A model generated the notes under the pieces. That model saw nothing but the letters and a program-made list of their open reading frames with translations, did not search any database and had not been told where the DNA came from. Shown one piece after another: positions 2,011-10,285 of a stretch of DNA of 10,285 nt. Source of the DNA: Bacillota bacterium (GTDB lineage: Bacteria > Bacillota > Syntrophomonadia > Syntrophomonadales > Syntrophomonadaceae); contig JAGFXV010000024.1 in the NCBI GenBank assembly GCA_017861475.1, forward strand, positions 1 through 10,285, given 5' to 3'. Both the position numbers and the translations under genes were made by a program. Numbering within the stretch: position 1 is the stretch's first letter; each line of letters opens with the position of its first letter.

Positions 2011-2115
2011 ACGGGCGATCCACACATGCCTTGAAATGAATGATGTATTGTTCAACATTACCATCTCTGCTGGAAAACCAAAACGCAGGTATACAGTATT
2101 TATGATGCGGTTTGC

Positions 2116-2144
2116 TTGCGCAAGCCTGGCGGGATGAATATACT
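2116..2144 (+). promoter_or_regulatory. Candidate promoter for the ANTAR regulator-glnA operon
   Basis: TTGCGC (2116-2121, only the TTG core matches) stands 17 bases before TATACT (2139-2144, 5 of 6 to TATAAT). Transcription would start near 2151, giving a leader of about 90 bases that would contain only the 2168-2183 hairpin, the terminator and the ribosome binding site. The -35 lies inside a 12-bp perfect palindrome, GCTTGCGCAAGC (2114-2125), a possible operator. Other weak -10 boxes (TATGAT at 2101) exist, so the choice is tentative. Confidence 0.35.
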
Positions 2145-2167: not shown

Positions 2168-2183
2168 TGGACGCAGATGTCCA
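2168..2183 (+). promoter_or_regulatory. Candidate antiterminator hairpin with a six-base loop
   Basis: TGGAC (2168-2172) pairs with GTCCA (2179-2183) around the hexaloop GCAGAT. Its 3' arm occupies bases 2177-2183, which also form the start of the terminator stem at 2177-2189, so the two structures exclude each other. The loop has G at position 4, as ANTAR target RNAs do, but G instead of the usual A at position 1. The stem GGAC/GUCC is the same as that of the second hairpin before gltB. No convincing first hexaloop hairpin was found upstream. Confidence 0.4.
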
Positions 2184-2823: not shown

Positions 2824-4155
2824 ATGAGTGATAAAAAGAAATTGGAATTGATGAAAAAAATCAAGGATAATGATGTGAGATTTCTGAGACTGCAGTTTAC
2901 CGATATTGCCGGAGTTATGAAAAATCTGGCCGTGCCGTTCAGTCAGGTGGAAAAGGTCCTGGATGGTGAGATCATGTTTGACGGTTCTTCTATCAATGGG
3001 TTTGCTGATATTTCCGAATCGGATATGTATCTGGTGCCGGATATGGATACTTTTGTGATATTTCCCTGGCGTTCTGCCAACGGTAAAGTGGCCCGGTTGA
3101 TCTGTGATATTTATCTGCCCGATGGCACACCTTTCCCCGGCTGTCCCCGTAACAATCTGAAGCGGGCGCTGAAGGAAGCCAATGATCTGGGCTATACCAT
3201 GCATGTAGGTCCGGAAGCTGAATTCTTCTTATTCCTATCGGATGAAAAAGGCCATGCCACCACTCAGGTCCAGGATGAGGCCGGTTATTTCGATCTGGCT
3301 CCGATCGATCTGGGAGAAAATGCCCGTCGGGATATGGATACTACGCTGGAAGAGATGGGATTTGAGATCGAGGCATCGCATCATGAGGTAGCGCCCGGAC
3401 AGCACGAAATCGATTTTAAATACGGAGATGCCTTGCATGTGGCCGATGCCATCATGACCTTTAAACTGGTAGTACGCTCCATTGCCCAGCGCCATGGTTT
3501 GCATGCTTCCTTCATGCCCAAACCGATTTTTGGTATAAACGGCTCGGGTATGCATACTCACCAGTCCTTGTTCAAGGATGGCCAGAATGCTTTTTATGAT
3601 CCCAATGGCCCGGATCAGCTGAGTGAAACGGCCAGATATTATATGGGCGGCATATTGAAACATGCCCGTTCTTTTGCAGCCATCACCAATCCAACCGTAA
3701 ATTCTTACAAAAGACTGGTTCCCGGTTATGAAGCCCCGGTCAATATTGCCTGGTCCGGCGCCAACCGCAGTTGTCTGGTAAGGATTCCGGCTAAAAGAGG
3801 AGCCAGCACTCGTGTCGAAGTGCGCAACCCGGATCCAACCTGCAACCCCTATCTGGCCCTGGCAGTGATGCTCAAAGCAGGTATGGACGGGATCAAAAAC
3901 AAGATTGAGCCACCCGCGGCAGTCGATCGCAACATCTACAAAATGGATGACGAGGAGCGTGCTGCGCTGGGGATCGGCAGTCTGCCCGGCAACCTGTTGG
4001 AAGCGTTGGTTGAACTGGAGAAGAGTGAATTGATCAAAGGGGCTTTGGGAAACCATATATATGAAAAGTTCCGTCAAGGCAAGCTGGATGAATGGAACGA
4101 ATACAACATTCAGGTTACTCCCTGGGAAGTGAGCAGCTATCTCACCAAGTTCTAG
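2824..4155 (+). CDS. glnA: Glutamine synthetase, type I-alpha
   Basis: GlnA condenses glutamate and ammonium with ATP to glutamine as a cytosolic dodecamer. The 443-residue length fits the GSI-alpha class, which lacks the insertion of the adenylylated GSI-beta enzymes. Signatures in order: M-F-D-G-S-S-I (51-57), metal ligands E131 and E133 in [16 protein letters not shown] (187-195), G-S-G-M-H-T-H (240-246), [11 protein letters not shown] (293-303, including the flap Glu E303) and [10 protein letters not shown] (325-334). All catalytic residues appear intact. Position 62 is Asp; in B. subtilis GlnA the aligned residue is Arg62, needed for glutamine feedback inhibition. Start ATG 2824 has GGAG (2811-2814) 9 bases upstream. 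It follows the ANTAR gene by 17 bases, so it shares its promoter and attenuator. GltBD downstream completes the GS-GOGAT cycle. Confidence 0.97.
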
Positions 4156-4178
4156 GCATTGTATACATTATATCTGCT

Positions 4179-4206
4179 CTGCACGTCTTGCATACAAGAC
4201 GTGCAG
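4179..4206 (+). terminator. Perfect 12-bp dyad after glnA: terminator or operator
   Basis: CTGCACGTCTTG (4179-4190) is exactly repeated in inverse at 4195-4206 around CATA, 23 bases after the glnA stop. As RNA it is a very stable hairpin, but the tail has only three Ts (CGTTTAAAATT), so termination would be weak. As DNA it overlaps the -35 box of a possible promoter at 4188-4216, and its core CTTGCATACAAG resembles GntR-type operators. Both uses are possible; the sequence alone does not decide. Confidence 0.45.
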
Positions 4207-4216
4207 CGTTTAAAAT
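4188..4216 (+). promoter_or_regulatory. Candidate promoter for gltBD
   Basis: TTGCAT (4188-4193) stands 17 bases before TAAAAT (4211-4216, 5 of 6 to TATAAT). Transcription would start near 4223, just 3 bases before the first hexaloop hairpin at 4226, which is where a leader regulated by antitermination would be expected to begin. The -35 matches only in its TTG core and lies in the dyad at 4179-4206, suggesting a regulated promoter. Read-through from glnA is the alternative source of gltBD transcript. Confidence 0.35.
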
Positions 4217-4225
4217 TACCGTGAT

Positions 4226-4286
4226 GGATGCAATGGAGTGTCCTCCTTGGGGTGTACTCAATATTTACTTATGGACAATGGGGTCC
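4226..4286 (+). promoter_or_regulatory. Dual hexaloop RNA element, probable ANTAR protein target, in the gltB leader
   Basis: First hairpin: GGATGC (4226-4231) pairs with GTGTCC (4238-4243), including two G-U pairs, around the six-base loop AATGGA. Second hairpin: GGAC (4273-4276) pairs with GTCC (4283-4286) around AATGGG. Both loops have A at position 1 and G at position 4, the hallmark of ANTAR-binding RNAs, and share the core AATGG. The second hairpin's 3' arm is used again by the terminator at 4282-4310, so binding to the hairpins would block termination. The 29-base linker is long for the motif. An ANTAR gene lies 1.4 kb upstream in the same cluster. Confidence 0.72.
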
Positions 4287-4314
4287 TCGCACTTGCCAGT
4301 GTTGAGGACCTTTT
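4282..4314 (+). terminator. Intrinsic terminator in the gltB leader (attenuator)
   Basis: GGTCCTC (4282-4288) pairs with GAGGACC (4304-4310); inside, CACT (4290-4293) pairs with AGTG (4298-4301) around TGCC, with a small internal G/TT loop. Four Ts (4311-4314) follow. It lies about 70 bases after the glnA-side dyad and 93 bases before the gltB start, and its first arm overlaps the second hexaloop hairpin at 4273-4286. The short T-run makes it moderately strong, which suits regulation. Confidence 0.7.
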
Positions 4315-4407
4315 CATGTCTGTATAAAAATACATTTAGGGGAAAAAATCTCCAATGAAGAATGTCAGGAATAAATTTATATAATGACGACCAATGAGGG
4401 TGGTAAT

Positions 4408-7400
4408 ATGAAAAACTATGGGTTGCCAGGCAAACAGGGACTATACGATCCGGCTTTCGAGCATGATGCATGCGGGATGGGATTTGTAGCCCATATCAAG
4501 GGAGAAAAATCTCATCAGATCATAGATGACGCTTTGACCGTTTTGGAGAATCTTAGTCACCGAGGTGCCAGCGGTGCAGATGAAAACACCGGTGACGGAG
4601 CCGGCATCATGCTGCAGATCCCCCATGATTTCTTTCAACGGGAATGCAGCGTGCTGGGCTTTGATTTGCCGGAAGCAGGCAGTTACGGGGTGGGCATGAT
4701 ATTTGCCCATCGTTATGTTGATTTCAGAAATACACAGATGGCAGCCTTTGAACAGATCGTGGAAGAAGAAGGGCAGCGGATCCTGGGCTGGAGAGAAGTC
4801 CCTATTGACAAGTCCGGCATCGGGGCTAGTGCCCAATCCGTTATGCCTCGTTTCATCCAGGTTTTTATTGCCAGAGATGAGGGATTGTCTGATGATATGG
4901 ATTTTGAAAGAAAGCTCTACATCATTCGTAAAAGGGCGGAAAAAATCATTATTCCCATGTGCGAGGACAAGGGAGGCTCATTTTATATTGCCAGTCTTTC
5001 GTCGAAAACCATTGTCTATAAAGGGATGCTAACGGCTGAGCAGCTGCGCAGCTTTTACCTGGATTTGTCCGATCTGGATTTTGAATCTGCTTTGGCCATG
5101 GTGCATTCAAGGTTCAGCACCAATACTTTCCCCAGCTGGGAAAGAGCGCATCCCAACCGTTATATCGTCCACAACGGTGAAATCAACACGGTGCGCGGCA
5201 ACGTCAACTGGATGAAGGCGCGCCAGAAGGTGATCGACTCACCGCTTTTTGAAGACATCACCAAGGTATATCCGATCATTGATGAGAGCGGAAGTGATTC
5301 CGCCATGTTTGACAACTGTCTGGAATTTCTCTGCCTTACCGGACGGTCGCTGCCCCACGGTGTAATGATGATGATCCCGGAACCATGGGAAGCCAATCAT
5401 CTTATGGCTGCAGAGAGAAAAGAATTCTATAAATTCAATAACTTTTTAATGGAACCCTGGGACGGACCTGCCGCGATCGGCTTTTCTGACGGGACGGTGA
5501 TTGGTGCCGTTCTGGACCGCAACGGTCTGCGGCCCGCCCGTTATTATGTAACCAAAGACGACCGGGTGATCCTGGCTTCAGAAGTAGGCGTAATCGACAT
5601 CAATCAGGAGAACGTTGTCTACAAGGGGCGGCTCGAACCCGGCAAGATGCTGCTGATCGATACCCAGGCGCAAAGGATCATCAGCAATGATGAAATTAAA
5701 AGCGAGGTTGCCCGGCTGCATCCCTACCAGGAGTGGAATCAACAGCACATTGTAAATCTGGCTGATATTCCGGCTGCCCCTGTGGCAGAAGAAACTGATA
5801 AAACCGATCTGGTCGAGCAGCAGAAAGCCTTTGGCTATACGTTTGAAGATATTTATCAGACCATACAGCCTATGGCGGCTGAAGGTCACGACCCGGTCGG
5901 ATCGATGGGGATGGACTCGCCGCTGGCAGTTCTTTCCGAGCAGCCGCAGATGCTTTACCTGTATTTTAAACAGCTTTTTGCCCAGGTCACCAATCCTCCC
6001 ATCGATGGGATCAGGGAAGAAATCGTGACCTCAAGCAGTCTGCCGCTGGGCAGTACCGGGAACCTGCTGGATCCCAACCGCTGCAAGGCGGCCTGTATTT
6101 ATCTGGAACATCCGATCCTTTCGAACGAACAGCTTCATAACCTGAAGTATTTGCATAATGACCGCTTCAAGTCGGCTACGATTTCCATCCTGTATAAGGC
6201 TTCGGAAGGTGCCAGAGCCATGAACCGGGCATTGGAACGTATTTTCCGCGAAGCGGATCAGGCCATCGCCGGCGGTGTCAATATCGTGATCCTTTCCGAT
6301 CGGGGCGTTAATGAAACGCTGGCTCCGATTCCGGCTTTGCTGGCTTCGTCCGGTTTGCATCATCATCTGACCAGAAAAGAGATCCGCACCAAAGTGGGCA
6401 TCGTGTTGGAATCAGGTGAGCCACGCGAGGTGCATCACTTTTGTACACTGGTTGGTTACGGTGTTACGGCCATCAATCCTTATCTGGCCTTTGATACCAT
6501 CCGCCAGCTTGGTGAACAGGACGCGCTGGGAGATCTTAGCTTTGAAGATGCGCAAAAGAATTTCATCAAAGCATCCGTTAAAGGCATGATGAAAGTAATC
6601 AGTAAAATGGGCATTTCAACCATGCGGGGCTATCATGGCGCGCAGGTATTTGAAGCCGTGGGACTGAAGCGGGAACTGGTGGATAAGTATTTTACCATGA
6701 CCCCTTCCCGCCTGGAAGGGATCGGACTGGAGGAAATCGCCCGGGAAAGCAGGATGCGTCACGATAGTGCCTTCAATAGAAATGATCCGGGACGGGAGAC
6801 GCTGGAGACCGGCGGCTATTTTCAGTGCAAGGAAAATGGAGAAATCCATCTTTATCATCCAGAAACGATCTATTTGCTGCAGCGTGCCTGCCGGGAGGGT
6901 GACTATCAGCTTTTCAAGGAGTTTTCCCGCAAGATCAATGAGGAAAAAGTATATACGCTGAGAAATTTGCTGGAGTTCAATATCATCCCCGGTGATACCA
7001 TCCCCATCGAAGAAGTTGAACCGGTGGATTCGATTGTTAGAAGGTTTAAGACGGGTGCCATGTCCTATGGCTCCATCAGCAAGGAAGCGCATGAATGTCT
7101 CGCCATCGCCATGAACCGGTTGGGCGGTAAAAGCAACAGCGGGGAGGGTGGAGAAGACCCTGACCGTTACAAGAAAGATAAAAAGGGAGATTCCAGGAGC
7201 AGTGCCATCAAACAGGTTGCCTCAGGACGTTTCGGAGTGACCAGCAACTATCTGGTGCATGCTACGGAAATTCAGATAAAAATGGCGCAGGGCGCCAAAC
7301 CGGGTGAGGGTGGTCAACTGCCCGGCGAAAAAGTATACCCGGCCATTGCCAAGGTCAGGCACTCAACGCCCGGCGTAGATTTGATTTCTCCGCCGCCCCA

Positions 7401-8976
7401 CCATGATATTTATTCAATTGAAGATCTGGGAGAACTGATCCACGATTTGAAAAATGCCAACCGGGATGCCGGCATTAGCGTAAAACTGGTATCTGAAGTG
7501 GGTGTCGGGACAATTGCGGCCGGGGTTGCCAAAGGCAAGGCTGATGTCATTCTGATCAGCGGTTATGACGGCGGGACAGGTGCAGCGCCCCGGACCAGCA
7601 TCAGGAATGCCGGCCTCCCCTGGGAACTTGGTCTGGCGGAAACACACCAGACATTAGTCCTTAACCGCTTGAGGGACCGGGTCACCCTGGAGACCGACGG
7701 CAAACTGATGTCAGGTCGCGATGTGGTGATTGCCGCCATGCTGGGAGCAGAGGAATTTGGCTTTGCTACTACTCCGCTCATTACATTGGGTTGTGTGATG
7801 ATGCGGGTTTGTGACCTGAATACCTGCCCGGTAGGGATAGCGACCCAGAATGAAAAACTGCGTAAAAATTTCGTTGGTCAACCCGAACATGTGGAGAACT
7901 TTATGCGCTTTGTGGCCCAGGAAATGCGGGAGATCATGGCCCGATTGGGTTTTAGGACCGTAAAAGAAATGGTCGGTCGCACCGACAAGCTGAAAAATAA
8001 AGACATCAAGCACTGGAAGGCTTCTCATTTGGATCTTTCGCCGATCCTGTATCAGCCGTATGCCGGTTCAAATGTAGGCCGCAGTAAAATGCTGCCCCAG
8101 AACCATCTGCTGGAGAAATCACTGGATGCCCGCAAGCTGTTGCGGATGTGCAAGCCGGCGCTGGAAAAAGAGAAGCCGATCCGGGCGAAGTTGAAGATAA
8201 ACAATGTGGACCGGGTGGTAGGAACCATGACCGGCAGTGAGATAACCAAAAAATACGGGGAAAATGGACTGCCCGATGATACCATAAAACTTACCTTTGT
8301 GGGGTCAGCCGGCCAGAGTTTCGGCGCTTTTACCCCCCGGGGCATGACCTTGGAACTGGAAGGGGATGCCAATGATTATATCGGCAAAGGTTTGTCGGGC
8401 AGCAAGATCATCGTTTATCCTCCCCGGGGATCAGGATTGGAACCGGATAAAAATATCCTGGTCGGCAATGTTGCGTTCTATGGCGCTACTTCCGGAGAAG
8501 CTTATATCAACGGGATTGCCGGGGAAAGATTCTGTGTGAGGAACAGCGGGATCCATGCCGTAGTGGAAGGCGTCGGCGAACATGGCTGCGAATACATGAC
8601 CGGTGGGAAAGTCGTTATTCTTGGTGATACCAGTCGTAATTTTGCGGCGGGCATGTCAGGCGGCATCGCCTATGTGCTTGATTTCAATGAGGCACACTGT
8701 AATAAAGCCATGGTACTTCTGGAGAAACTTGAATCTCCGGAAGAAATAGATGAAGTCAAAATGATGATCCGCAATCATGTAAATTATACGGCAAGTCCGC
8801 TGGGACAGAAGGTACTTGAAGATTGGGAAAATTACCTGCCCCGCTTTACAAAAGTAATACCGACCGTGTATAAAAACATTTTGCAGGATATGGCCCTAAA
8901 TCTTCCCAAACCAAAGAAAAAACCGACGGCAAAGTCGGCAACAGGTTGGCAGGCAGACAGGCAGAAAAGGAATTAA
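4408..8976 (+). CDS. gltB: Glutamate synthase (NADPH-type), large subunit
   Basis: The alpha subunit of glutamate synthase splits glutamine, channels the ammonia to 2-oxoglutarate and reduces the iminoglutarate on FMN to glutamate. Domains in order: a short propeptide ending before the nucleophile C22 in H-D-A-C-G-M-G-F; the class II amidotransferase (about 22-430); a central domain (about 450-750); the FMN synthase domain (about 800-1190), with [11 protein letters not shown] (906-916) and the 3Fe-4S cysteines C1129, C1135 and C1140 (C-x5-C-x4-C); and the C-terminal beta-helix domain with [10 protein letters not shown] from 1299. At 1522 residues it is full length, with a basic Lys/Pro-rich tail. 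I start at ATG 4408, where GAGGG (4396-4400) is 7 bases upstream; the earlier ATG 4384 has no good site. Bacillus calls this gene gltA. It is coupled to gltD 14 bases on and controlled by the leader switch upstream. Confidence 0.97.
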
Positions 8977-8990
8977 GGTGGGCGTTAGTT

Positions 8991-10285
8991 ATGGGAAAAG
9001 CAACTGGATTTATGGAATACCCCAGAGTTGAATCAGCCCAACGGGCTCCTGAAGAACGGATCAAGGATTGGAATGATATCAGGATGCCGCAGGATCAGAT
9101 TGCGCTGCAAAAGCAAGGAGCCAGATGCATGAATTGCGGCATTCCTTTCTGTCACAGCGGCATCCTGTTAAACGGGATGACTTCCGGTTGTCCGCTGCAT
9201 AATTTAATTCCCGAGTGGAATGATCTGGTTTACAAAGGACGCTGGAAGGAAGCTTACCAGAGACTGACCCGTACCAACCCGTTCCCGGAATTTACCGGCC
9301 GGGTATGTCCTGCACCCTGTGAAGGGGCCTGTACCGTTGGTTATCTTTGGGATGCAGTGACGATAAAAAGTATCGAATACGAAATTATCGAGATGGCTTT
9401 CTCGGAAGGATGGGTCAAACCGGTGCAGGGAATTCCCACCGGCTACAAAGTGGCGGTGGTGGGATCGGGTCCGGCCGGATTGGCCGCAGCCCATTATTTG
9501 AATGCGGTCGGCCATGATGTAACCGTTTTCGAACGTGACGACCGTCCCGGCGGTTTATTGGTTTACGGAATCCCCAACATGAAACTGGACAAAGCAGTTA
9601 TTGCCAGACGAATTGAAGTGATGCAGGCGGCCGGGATCAAATTCGTGCTCAATACGGAAATCGGCACAGATTTGCCAGCCGATGATCTGACCGCCAACTT
9701 TGATGCAGTACTTTTGTGCGCCGGTGCAGGCAAGCCCAGACATCTGCAGGCGGAAGGCCATGATCTCAAGGGAGTTCACTTCGCGCTCGATTTTCTGAAG
9801 GGCGGTACCCGAAGTATTCTGGATGAAAATGAAGATGACAGCTTCTTTATCAATGCCCGCAATAAAAATGTGATCGTGATCGGCGGCGGAGATACCGGAA
9901 CAGACTGTGTGGCCACCGCCATTCGTCAGAACTGCAAAAGTGTTTATCAGTTTGAAATCCAGCCGGAGCCCCCTGACCGGCGTATCAAACCATCCAACCC
10001 CTGGCCGGAATGGCCGCGTAAACAAAAAGTAGACTACGGCCAGGCAGAGGCCATCAGCATCAGCGGTGAAGATCCCCGTCATTATTTGCTCGCCACTAAA
10101 AAGATCGAGGGCGACAAGCAAGGCCGGGTACGGGCAGTGCATACCGTAGGGGTCAATTGGTTTAAAAATGCTTCCGGACGTCTGGAACCCATGGAAGTAC
10201 CCGGCAGCGAAAAAGTATGGCCTGCCGATCTGGTACTGCTGGCTCTGGGTTTTGTCGGACCGGAAGATATACTGCCGGAAGAGAT
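8991..10285 (+). CDS. gltD: Glutamate synthase small subunit (3' end beyond window)
   Basis: The beta subunit passes electrons from NAD(P)H through FAD and 4Fe-4S clusters to the large subunit. 431 codons are present out of an expected total near 490; the frame is open to the edge. The N-terminal cluster-binding cysteines are visible: C46, C49 and C54 in C-M-N-C-G-I-P-F-C, C67, then C106, C110 and C114 in C-P-A-P-C-E-G-A-C. The FAD-binding motif G-S-G-P-A-G is at 158-163 and the NAD(P)-binding motif G-G-G-D-T-G at 298-303. The segment N-P-W-P-E-W-P (336-342) is typical of the bacterial subunit. The start ATG 8991 is preceded by AAGGTGG (8975-8981), which overlaps the gltB stop codon, so translation is probably coupled to gltB. 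No disruption is seen. Confidence 0.96.
   Translation, partial: MGKATGFMEYPRVESAQRAPEERIKDWNDIRMPQDQIALQKQGARCMNCGIPFCHSGILLNGMTSGCPLHNLIPEWNDLVYKGRWKEAYQRLTRTNPFPEFTGRVCPAPCEGACTVGYLWDAVTIKSIEYEIIEMAFSEGWVKPVQGIPTGYKVAVVGSGPAGLAAAHYLNAVGHDVTVFERDDRPGGLLVYGIPNMKLDKAVIARRIEVMQAAGIKFVLNTEIGTDLPADDLTANFDAVLLCAGAGKPRHLQAEGHDLKGVHFALDFLKGGTRSILDENEDDSFFINARNKNVIVIGGGDTGTDCVATAIRQNCKSVYQFEIQPEPPDRRIKPSNPWPEWPRKQKVDYGQAEAISISGEDPRHYLLATKKIEGDKQGRVRAVHTVGVNWFKNASGRLEPMEVPGSEKVWPADLVLLALGFVGPEDILPEE

Follow-up and report, generated by a model that had tools for sequence, protein, structure and literature searches.

Gene content of the analysed region

The analysed stretch of DNA (10,285 nucleotides, contig JAGFXV010000024.1 of assembly GCA_017861475.1; hereafter the window) comes from a Bacillota bacterium of the family Syntrophomonadaceae, class Syntrophomonadia (hereafter the class). 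The forward strand of the window contained a gene for an ANTAR response-regulator-like protein that presumably reads the leader described below (2243-2806), glnA for glutamine synthetase (2824-4155), gltB for the large subunit of glutamate synthase (4408-8976) and gltD for its small subunit (8991-10285, continuing past the end of the window). The open reading frame of gltB opens at 4384, and the ATG at 4408 was preferred by eye from relatives. The initial annotation had placed an ANTAR gene in the same cluster as gltBD, and this was borne out. The other window genes were nadD (a name that we take from its family and from recall), an HD-domain gene and rsfS, and no kinase was found among the seven window proteins scanned.

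In a NitR-type cluster, glnA and the glutamate-synthase genes adjoin the ANTAR gene, as they do in the window. The NitR gene itself reportedly clusters with glnA, which fits the title of the paper on it. The organism's own assembly (77% complete) yielded one ANTAR domain, that of the window gene. Among the matches listed, the best named match to the window ANTAR protein was in the HGW-Firmicutes-15 assembly (locus L062, 64%). Most of the 20 relative loci fetched for the ANTAR gene (18) had glnA at most 0.4 kb from it; the exceptions were L036 of genome G010, where the distance was 2.4 kb, and L043, where glnA was absent.

Structure of the gltBD leader

The leader upstream of gltB, on the forward strand, contained two hairpins and an intrinsic terminator. 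The first hairpin, P1 (4226-4243), seen in sequence and alignment, has arms GGATGC and GTGTCC (6 bp, two of them G-U) around the hexaloop AATGGA. It is followed by a linker of 29 nt (4244-4272) and by P2, the antiterminator hairpin (4273-4286), with arms GGAC and GTCC (4 bp) around the hexaloop AATGGG. The terminator (4282-4314) consists of a stem from GGTCCTC to GAGGACC (4282-4310) and the tail TTTT (4311-4314), and its 5' arm overlaps the 3' arm of P2 at bases 4282-4286. The initial annotation had described both hexaloop hairpins, the terminator, the shared bases and the gap between the hairpins, and its positions proved correct to the base. The features of a published ANTAR target were thus present, namely two hairpins of at least 3 bp, hexaloops with A at position 1 and G at position 4, and a P2 that overlaps an intrinsic terminator.

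A promoter is proposed at 4188-4216 (forward strand; TTGCAT-N17-TAAAAT), with the same geometry in relatives, and transcription of gltBD would be expected to start near 4223. Its -35 element TTGCAT matched the consensus at three of six positions, and a simple consensus scanner listed neither this promoter nor the leader terminator. A GTATAC box (GTATACATTATATC, 4161-4174, forward strand) begins 27 nt upstream of the proposed -35. A perfect 12-bp inverted repeat (CTGCACGTCTTG/CAAGACGTGCAG, 4179-4206) without a T run lies across the proposed -35; it was absent from the G010 leader.

Chance expectation and folding

The full combination (an A1/G4 hexaloop hairpin of at least 5 bp, a gap of 3-40 nt, an R1/G4 hexaloop hairpin of at least 4 bp and an overlapping terminator with a T tail) occurred once in the window; 300 dinucleotide shuffles gave 0.017 on average. 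Hairpin pairs lacking the terminator were not rare (4 in the window versus 0.92 in shuffles). Over 105 fetched loci (1.33 Mb, four loci that overlapped others being excluded), with at least two G-C pairs required in P1, the scan gave 26 combinations versus 0.67 per shuffled set; the G-C filter removed L112 (gap 30) and a second pairing in L057.

The minimum-energy fold of 4216-4320 contained the terminator, with both P1 and P2 absent. Taken singly, the terminator (-16.7 kcal/mol) was far stronger than P2 (-3.9 kcal/mol), and the two-hairpin state would therefore need help. With the terminator removed, 6 of 12 leaders had P1 in its assigned register when folded to minimum energy; in the window leader this required the removal of P2 as well. 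A search with Rfam 15 at E<=5 gave no match at the gltBD leader and one weak match elsewhere in the window, so that a glutamine riboswitch or T-box at the leader was not supported.

Conservation of the leader

Seven further class genomes had comparable dual-hairpin leaders ahead of genes for glutamate synthase. They precede gltB in G010, G032, G043 and G068, and split-type glutamate synthase genes (in which a gene with an amidotransferase domain is followed by a gltB-like domain downstream) in G031, where gene identity was established by domain search, and in G016 and G040, where it was assigned by eye. P2 of G068 was irregular and had no clean hexaloop, and the P2 loop had G at position 1 ahead of gltB in G010 and G043.

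In the eight aligned sequences, both-side changes occurred in four of the six pairs of P1, with 93.8% of cells paired. P2 had none in its four pairs, two being invariant and two altered on one side. The initial annotation had named the lack of covariation in the two stems as a result that would speak against it; half of this came about, both-side changes being present in P1 and absent from P2. For P1 and P2 jointly, 95% of cells paired versus 34-54% when slid; the covariation score was reached by none of 500 shuffles and the number of both-side pairs by 29 of 500. The terminator stem had both-side changes in two of seven pairs.

In the window, G010 and G068, the leader is placed in the glnA-gltB intergenic region. 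In G032 and G043, gltB with its leader is on a contig separate from that of the ANTAR gene and glnA, and the leader is therefore not simply a glnA terminator. No such leader was present before gltB in G011 and G029, despite the same glnA-gltBD order and ANTAR proteins 61% and 60% identical to the window protein, respectively; the dependence of GltBD on the ANTAR protein proposed by the initial annotation would therefore not be universal. In G038 (L039), which was left out of the leader alignment (A4), two closer A1/G4 hairpins follow glnA, and the scan found no terminator there.

Linker length

The gap between the hairpins had been described as longer than expected and perhaps a variant of the motif, and it turned out to be a real variant common to relatives. 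Linkers of 28-32 nt were found in five glutamate-synthase leaders (window 29, G010 29, G032 32, G043 28 and G031 30 nt), and shorter ones in the split-type leaders of G016 (19 nt) and G040 (13 nt). Other long linkers of the class were 28 nt in the gltD leader of G043 and 34 nt in a leader of G020. In the 105-locus scan, class gaps were 9, 13, 28, 29, 30, 32 and 38 nt; those of 9 and 13 nt were both from G040, and that of 38 nt (L038) had a poor P1 and was excluded as support. Nineteen dual elements from loci taken to be outside the class, with the kinship of the named ones assumed, had gaps of 3-20 nt; about 0.7 chance matches are expected in the scan as a whole. The out-of-class model match in G096 had a gap of 23 nt, and in G278 a P1 separated from P2 by 51 nt is probably due to chance.

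In the original search model for ANTAR targets the linker was left variable, so its range is an empirical one (PMC3369931). The linkers of the eut leaders of Enterococcus faecalis measure 5-12 nt and are sensitive to length, since in the eutP leader a 14-nt linker drastically cut induction in vivo, and lengthening by 20 nt left no antitermination in vitro (PMC3369931, PMC8934654). The 29 nt of the window lie outside this range and outside the 2-25 nt to which actinobacterial ANTAR RNAs were curated (PMC8164766). No conserved structure was found within the linker, which the consensus fold of six leaders leaves unpaired. An extended P1, suggested by some folds, in which the 5' end would pair with the start of the linker and so shorten it, was rejected, since nine leaders did not differ clearly from versions with shuffled flanks (mean z -0.57, range -2.07 to 1.36).

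Association with ANTAR genes and features of the ANTAR protein

A model of P1 plus terminator (R1), built from eight leaders, and the ANTAR domain were searched for in the same 63 class genomes, 35 of which contained an ANTAR domain. At E<=0.3, a cut-off set afterwards, all 23 matched genomes had an ANTAR domain versus 12 of 40 others. Without the eight seed genomes the counts were 15 of 15 versus 12 of 40 (Fisher p 1.5e-6), and at E<=1, again without seeds, 19 of 21 versus 8 of 34; all these counts are uncorrected for kinship. The matches in the two matched genomes that lacked an ANTAR domain (E 0.32 and 0.6), where the scan sees no P2, are probably due to chance. In a sample of 249 genomes of the phylum, 21 had a match at E<=0.05, and 4 of these 21 belong to the class. 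Of 16 out-of-class loci examined, three had no downstream frame, and the remaining frames, named by eye, included ANTAR, glnA-like, ammonium-transporter-like, asparagine-synthase-like and PPDK_N-like ones.

An intact receiver pocket has an acidic pair, an Asp, a Thr or Ser and a Lys. In the receiver of the window protein, aligned by eye, Asp55 and Lys98 were kept, the acidic pair was reduced to one residue and Ala stood at the Thr/Ser position, so that the pocket was not the intact one of a EutV-type regulator. With its receiver pocket degenerate, control of the window ANTAR protein by phosphorylation as in EutV is doubtful. The ANTAR protein at L036 of G010 had its phospho-acceptor Asp replaced by Ala. 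Ten residues of EutV are reported to touch RNA or to affect binding (PMC3369931, PMC8934654), and 7 of the 10 were identical in the window protein, on an inferred numbering offset of 2; K147, R175 and R177 of EutV were Q, S and S, respectively.

Candidate nitrogen regulon and GTATAC box

More than half of the 43 model matches in the class (25) preceded nitrogen-assimilation or ANTAR genes, the next gene being named by domain search for part of the matches and by similarity by eye for the rest. These next genes were ANTAR (8), gltB (5), carA (4), split-type glutamate synthase (3), and gltD, gdhA, P-II, amtB and type I glnA (1 each). The other 18 matches had a next gene without a clear nitrogen role or no frame: PPDK_N-type (7), FAD oxidase (2), nifV-like (1) and other or no frame (8). 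A recurrent target of the leader (L150, L152, L153, L160, L163, L171 and L179) was a protein with an N-terminal stretch resembling STGLxxLD...GDNVVWQ, and the PPDK_N domain was found in all three of these that were scanned (L152, L163 and L179).

The ANTAR-glnA unit of the window has its own GTATAC box (2089-2102) with a proposed promoter, TTGCGC-N17-TATACT (box and promoter 2089-2144, forward strand), and here too the box begins exactly 27 nt before the proposed -35. A single hexaloop hairpin follows before the ANTAR gene (2168-2183, forward strand), with arms TGGAC and GTCCA around GCAGAT, whose first position is G instead of A. A strong terminator overlaps it (2181-2213 plus a T run, forward strand; whole element 2168-2223), and this arrangement suggests possible autoregulation. 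A box, a single hexaloop and a terminator were also observed on contig 84 of the own assembly, G000 (5799-5928; L176 and L189), before a gene similar to nifV or homocitrate synthase. The product of this nifV-like gene scored below the NifV cut-off, and it may be a Re-citrate synthase feeding glutamate synthesis. The own assembly thus had three units with box, hexaloop and terminator (ANTAR-glnA, gltBD and the nifV-like gene), and P1 was found in gltBD only, the other two having a single hexaloop.

Of the 43 class matches, 26 had a GTATAC at most 150 nt before the hairpin, versus 1.6 expected by simple arithmetic; R1 begins at P1, so the upstream GTATAC lies outside the modelled part. After removal of duplicates by their first 40 bases and addition of the window ANTAR leader, 25 distinct box leaders were compared. 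In 18, the distance from box start to TTG was exactly 27 nt, with about 0.4 expected by arithmetic; the other seven lacked it there, two of them having TTG at +26. GTATAC also lay upstream in 3 of the 16 out-of-class loci examined. The box is probably the site of a DNA-binding regulator. As a genome-wide signal it was not enriched, the own assembly having 24 sites with at most one mismatch to GTATACAGTAT versus 45 for the reversed pattern. Three of the 24 sites were followed, in the range scanned, by a hexaloop overlapping a terminator, those before the ANTAR gene, gltB and the nifV-like gene.

Comparison with known systems

For Desulfotomaculum reducens, ANTAR targets ahead of glutamate-synthase genes have already been published (PMC3369931, section 10). 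The Desulfotomaculum RNAs share with the window the dual A1/G4 hexaloop, the overlap of P2 with a terminator, the position before glutamate-synthase and other nitrogen genes and the occurrence of several elements per genome, whereas the GTATAC promoter box and the single-hexaloop relatives of the window group are not mentioned in the consulted parts of that account (PMC3369931). The EutV/eut system likewise has hexaloops, terminator overlap and a REC-ANTAR protein with the RNA-contact residues compared above; it differs in linker length and in that EutV is activated by the kinase EutW, whereas the window receiver has lost part of its acidic pocket (PMC3369931, PMC8934654).

In function, the closest system is NitR of Clostridium saccharobutylicum. 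It shares an ANTAR protein, antitermination and the induction of GS/GOGAT genes under nitrogen limitation, and an antisense RNA has been reported in it (PMC6316151). Actinobacterial ANTAR RNAs also have dual A1/G4 hexaloops but, apart from their curated linkers, few lie upstream of a terminator (PMC8164766). In a literature search that was shallow for most papers and had subscription journals mostly beyond its reach, no account of ANTAR targets with a long linker or a single hexaloop, or of the GTATAC box, was recognised. Within the reach of this search, the linker length, the leaders with one hexaloop and the GTATAC box at its fixed position would be new.

Proposed mechanism and alternative explanations

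The proposal of an ANTAR-type target gained support from the conserved leader, the both-side changes in P1 and the co-occurrence with ANTAR genes, and the gltBD leader very probably belongs to the published kind of ANTAR antitermination targets. The best-supported model, which we hold with considerable confidence, is default termination relieved by a P2 that the ANTAR protein would stabilise. The gltBD transcript would begin just upstream of P1, at the promoter with the GTATAC box, and by default the strong terminator would form and end transcription before gltB. In its active state, which probably reflects a need for nitrogen, the product of the ANTAR gene ahead of glnA would bind the hexaloop of P1 on its exit from RNA polymerase, would reach or be handed to P2 over the 29-nt linker, and by stabilising P2 would prevent the terminator from forming.

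A reading in which only P2 matters, with the ANTAR protein acting on the terminator-overlapping hexaloop and P1 being a recruiting or leftover element, is rather unlikely although it deserves weight, and its odds overlap those of the best-supported model. It would account for the single-hexaloop leaders of carA, the nifV-like gene and the ANTAR gene, and several box-promoter leaders carry a P2-type hairpin with an overlapping terminator and no P1 by the scan. From box to P2 loop, the four carA leaders whose box was measured span 84-94 nt and six single leaders 80-95 nt, versus 106-123 nt in eight dual ones. However, other leaders in which no P1 was found have box distances of 101-114 nt, the scan may miss weak P1 forms, the both-side changes in the hairpins of gltB leaders fall in P1, and EutV needs P1 in vivo (PMC3369931, PMC8934654).

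Two further readings dispense with the ANTAR protein or with gltB. An ordinary terminator or attenuator unread by ANTAR, with incidental hexaloops and read-through under another factor or none, would fit the preference of the free RNA for the terminator and other pairings, the second regulator to which the GTATAC box points, and the retention of an ANTAR gene without a gltB leader in G011 and G029. It is nevertheless improbable in view of the low chance expectation (0.017), the P1 pairs that change on both sides, the co-occurrence of leader and ANTAR genes and the lack of an Rfam riboswitch or T-box match at the leader. Far less probable still is that the hairpin terminates glnA transcription and does not belong to gltB: in the window, G010 and G068 its position downstream of glnA and ahead of gltB suits such a role, but the leader is kept where gltB and ANTAR-glnA are on different contigs (G032 and G043), and a proposed promoter with a conserved box lies directly upstream of P1.

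Beyond the preferred model of ANTAR-relieved termination at gltBD, a nitrogen regulon of the class that is controlled twice is put forward tentatively, at less than even confidence. One control would be a DNA-binding regulator at the GTATAC box; the other would be one ANTAR protein, with a degenerate receiver and probably independent of phosphorylation, that antiterminates long-linker dual leaders and single-hexaloop leaders, its own included.

Biological significance

Whether the two hexaloops need to be close to each other, and whether a dimer has to use both of them, is pivotal to the EutV model. This can be tested directly on the natural set formed by leaders whose linkers measure 28-32 nt and by single-hexaloop leaders that carry the same promoter box. 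If the reading of double control is true, close hexaloop spacing, essential in EutV, would be no general requirement of ANTAR antitermination. For a group represented here mostly by fragmented assemblies, these leaders provide a concrete candidate nitrogen regulon.
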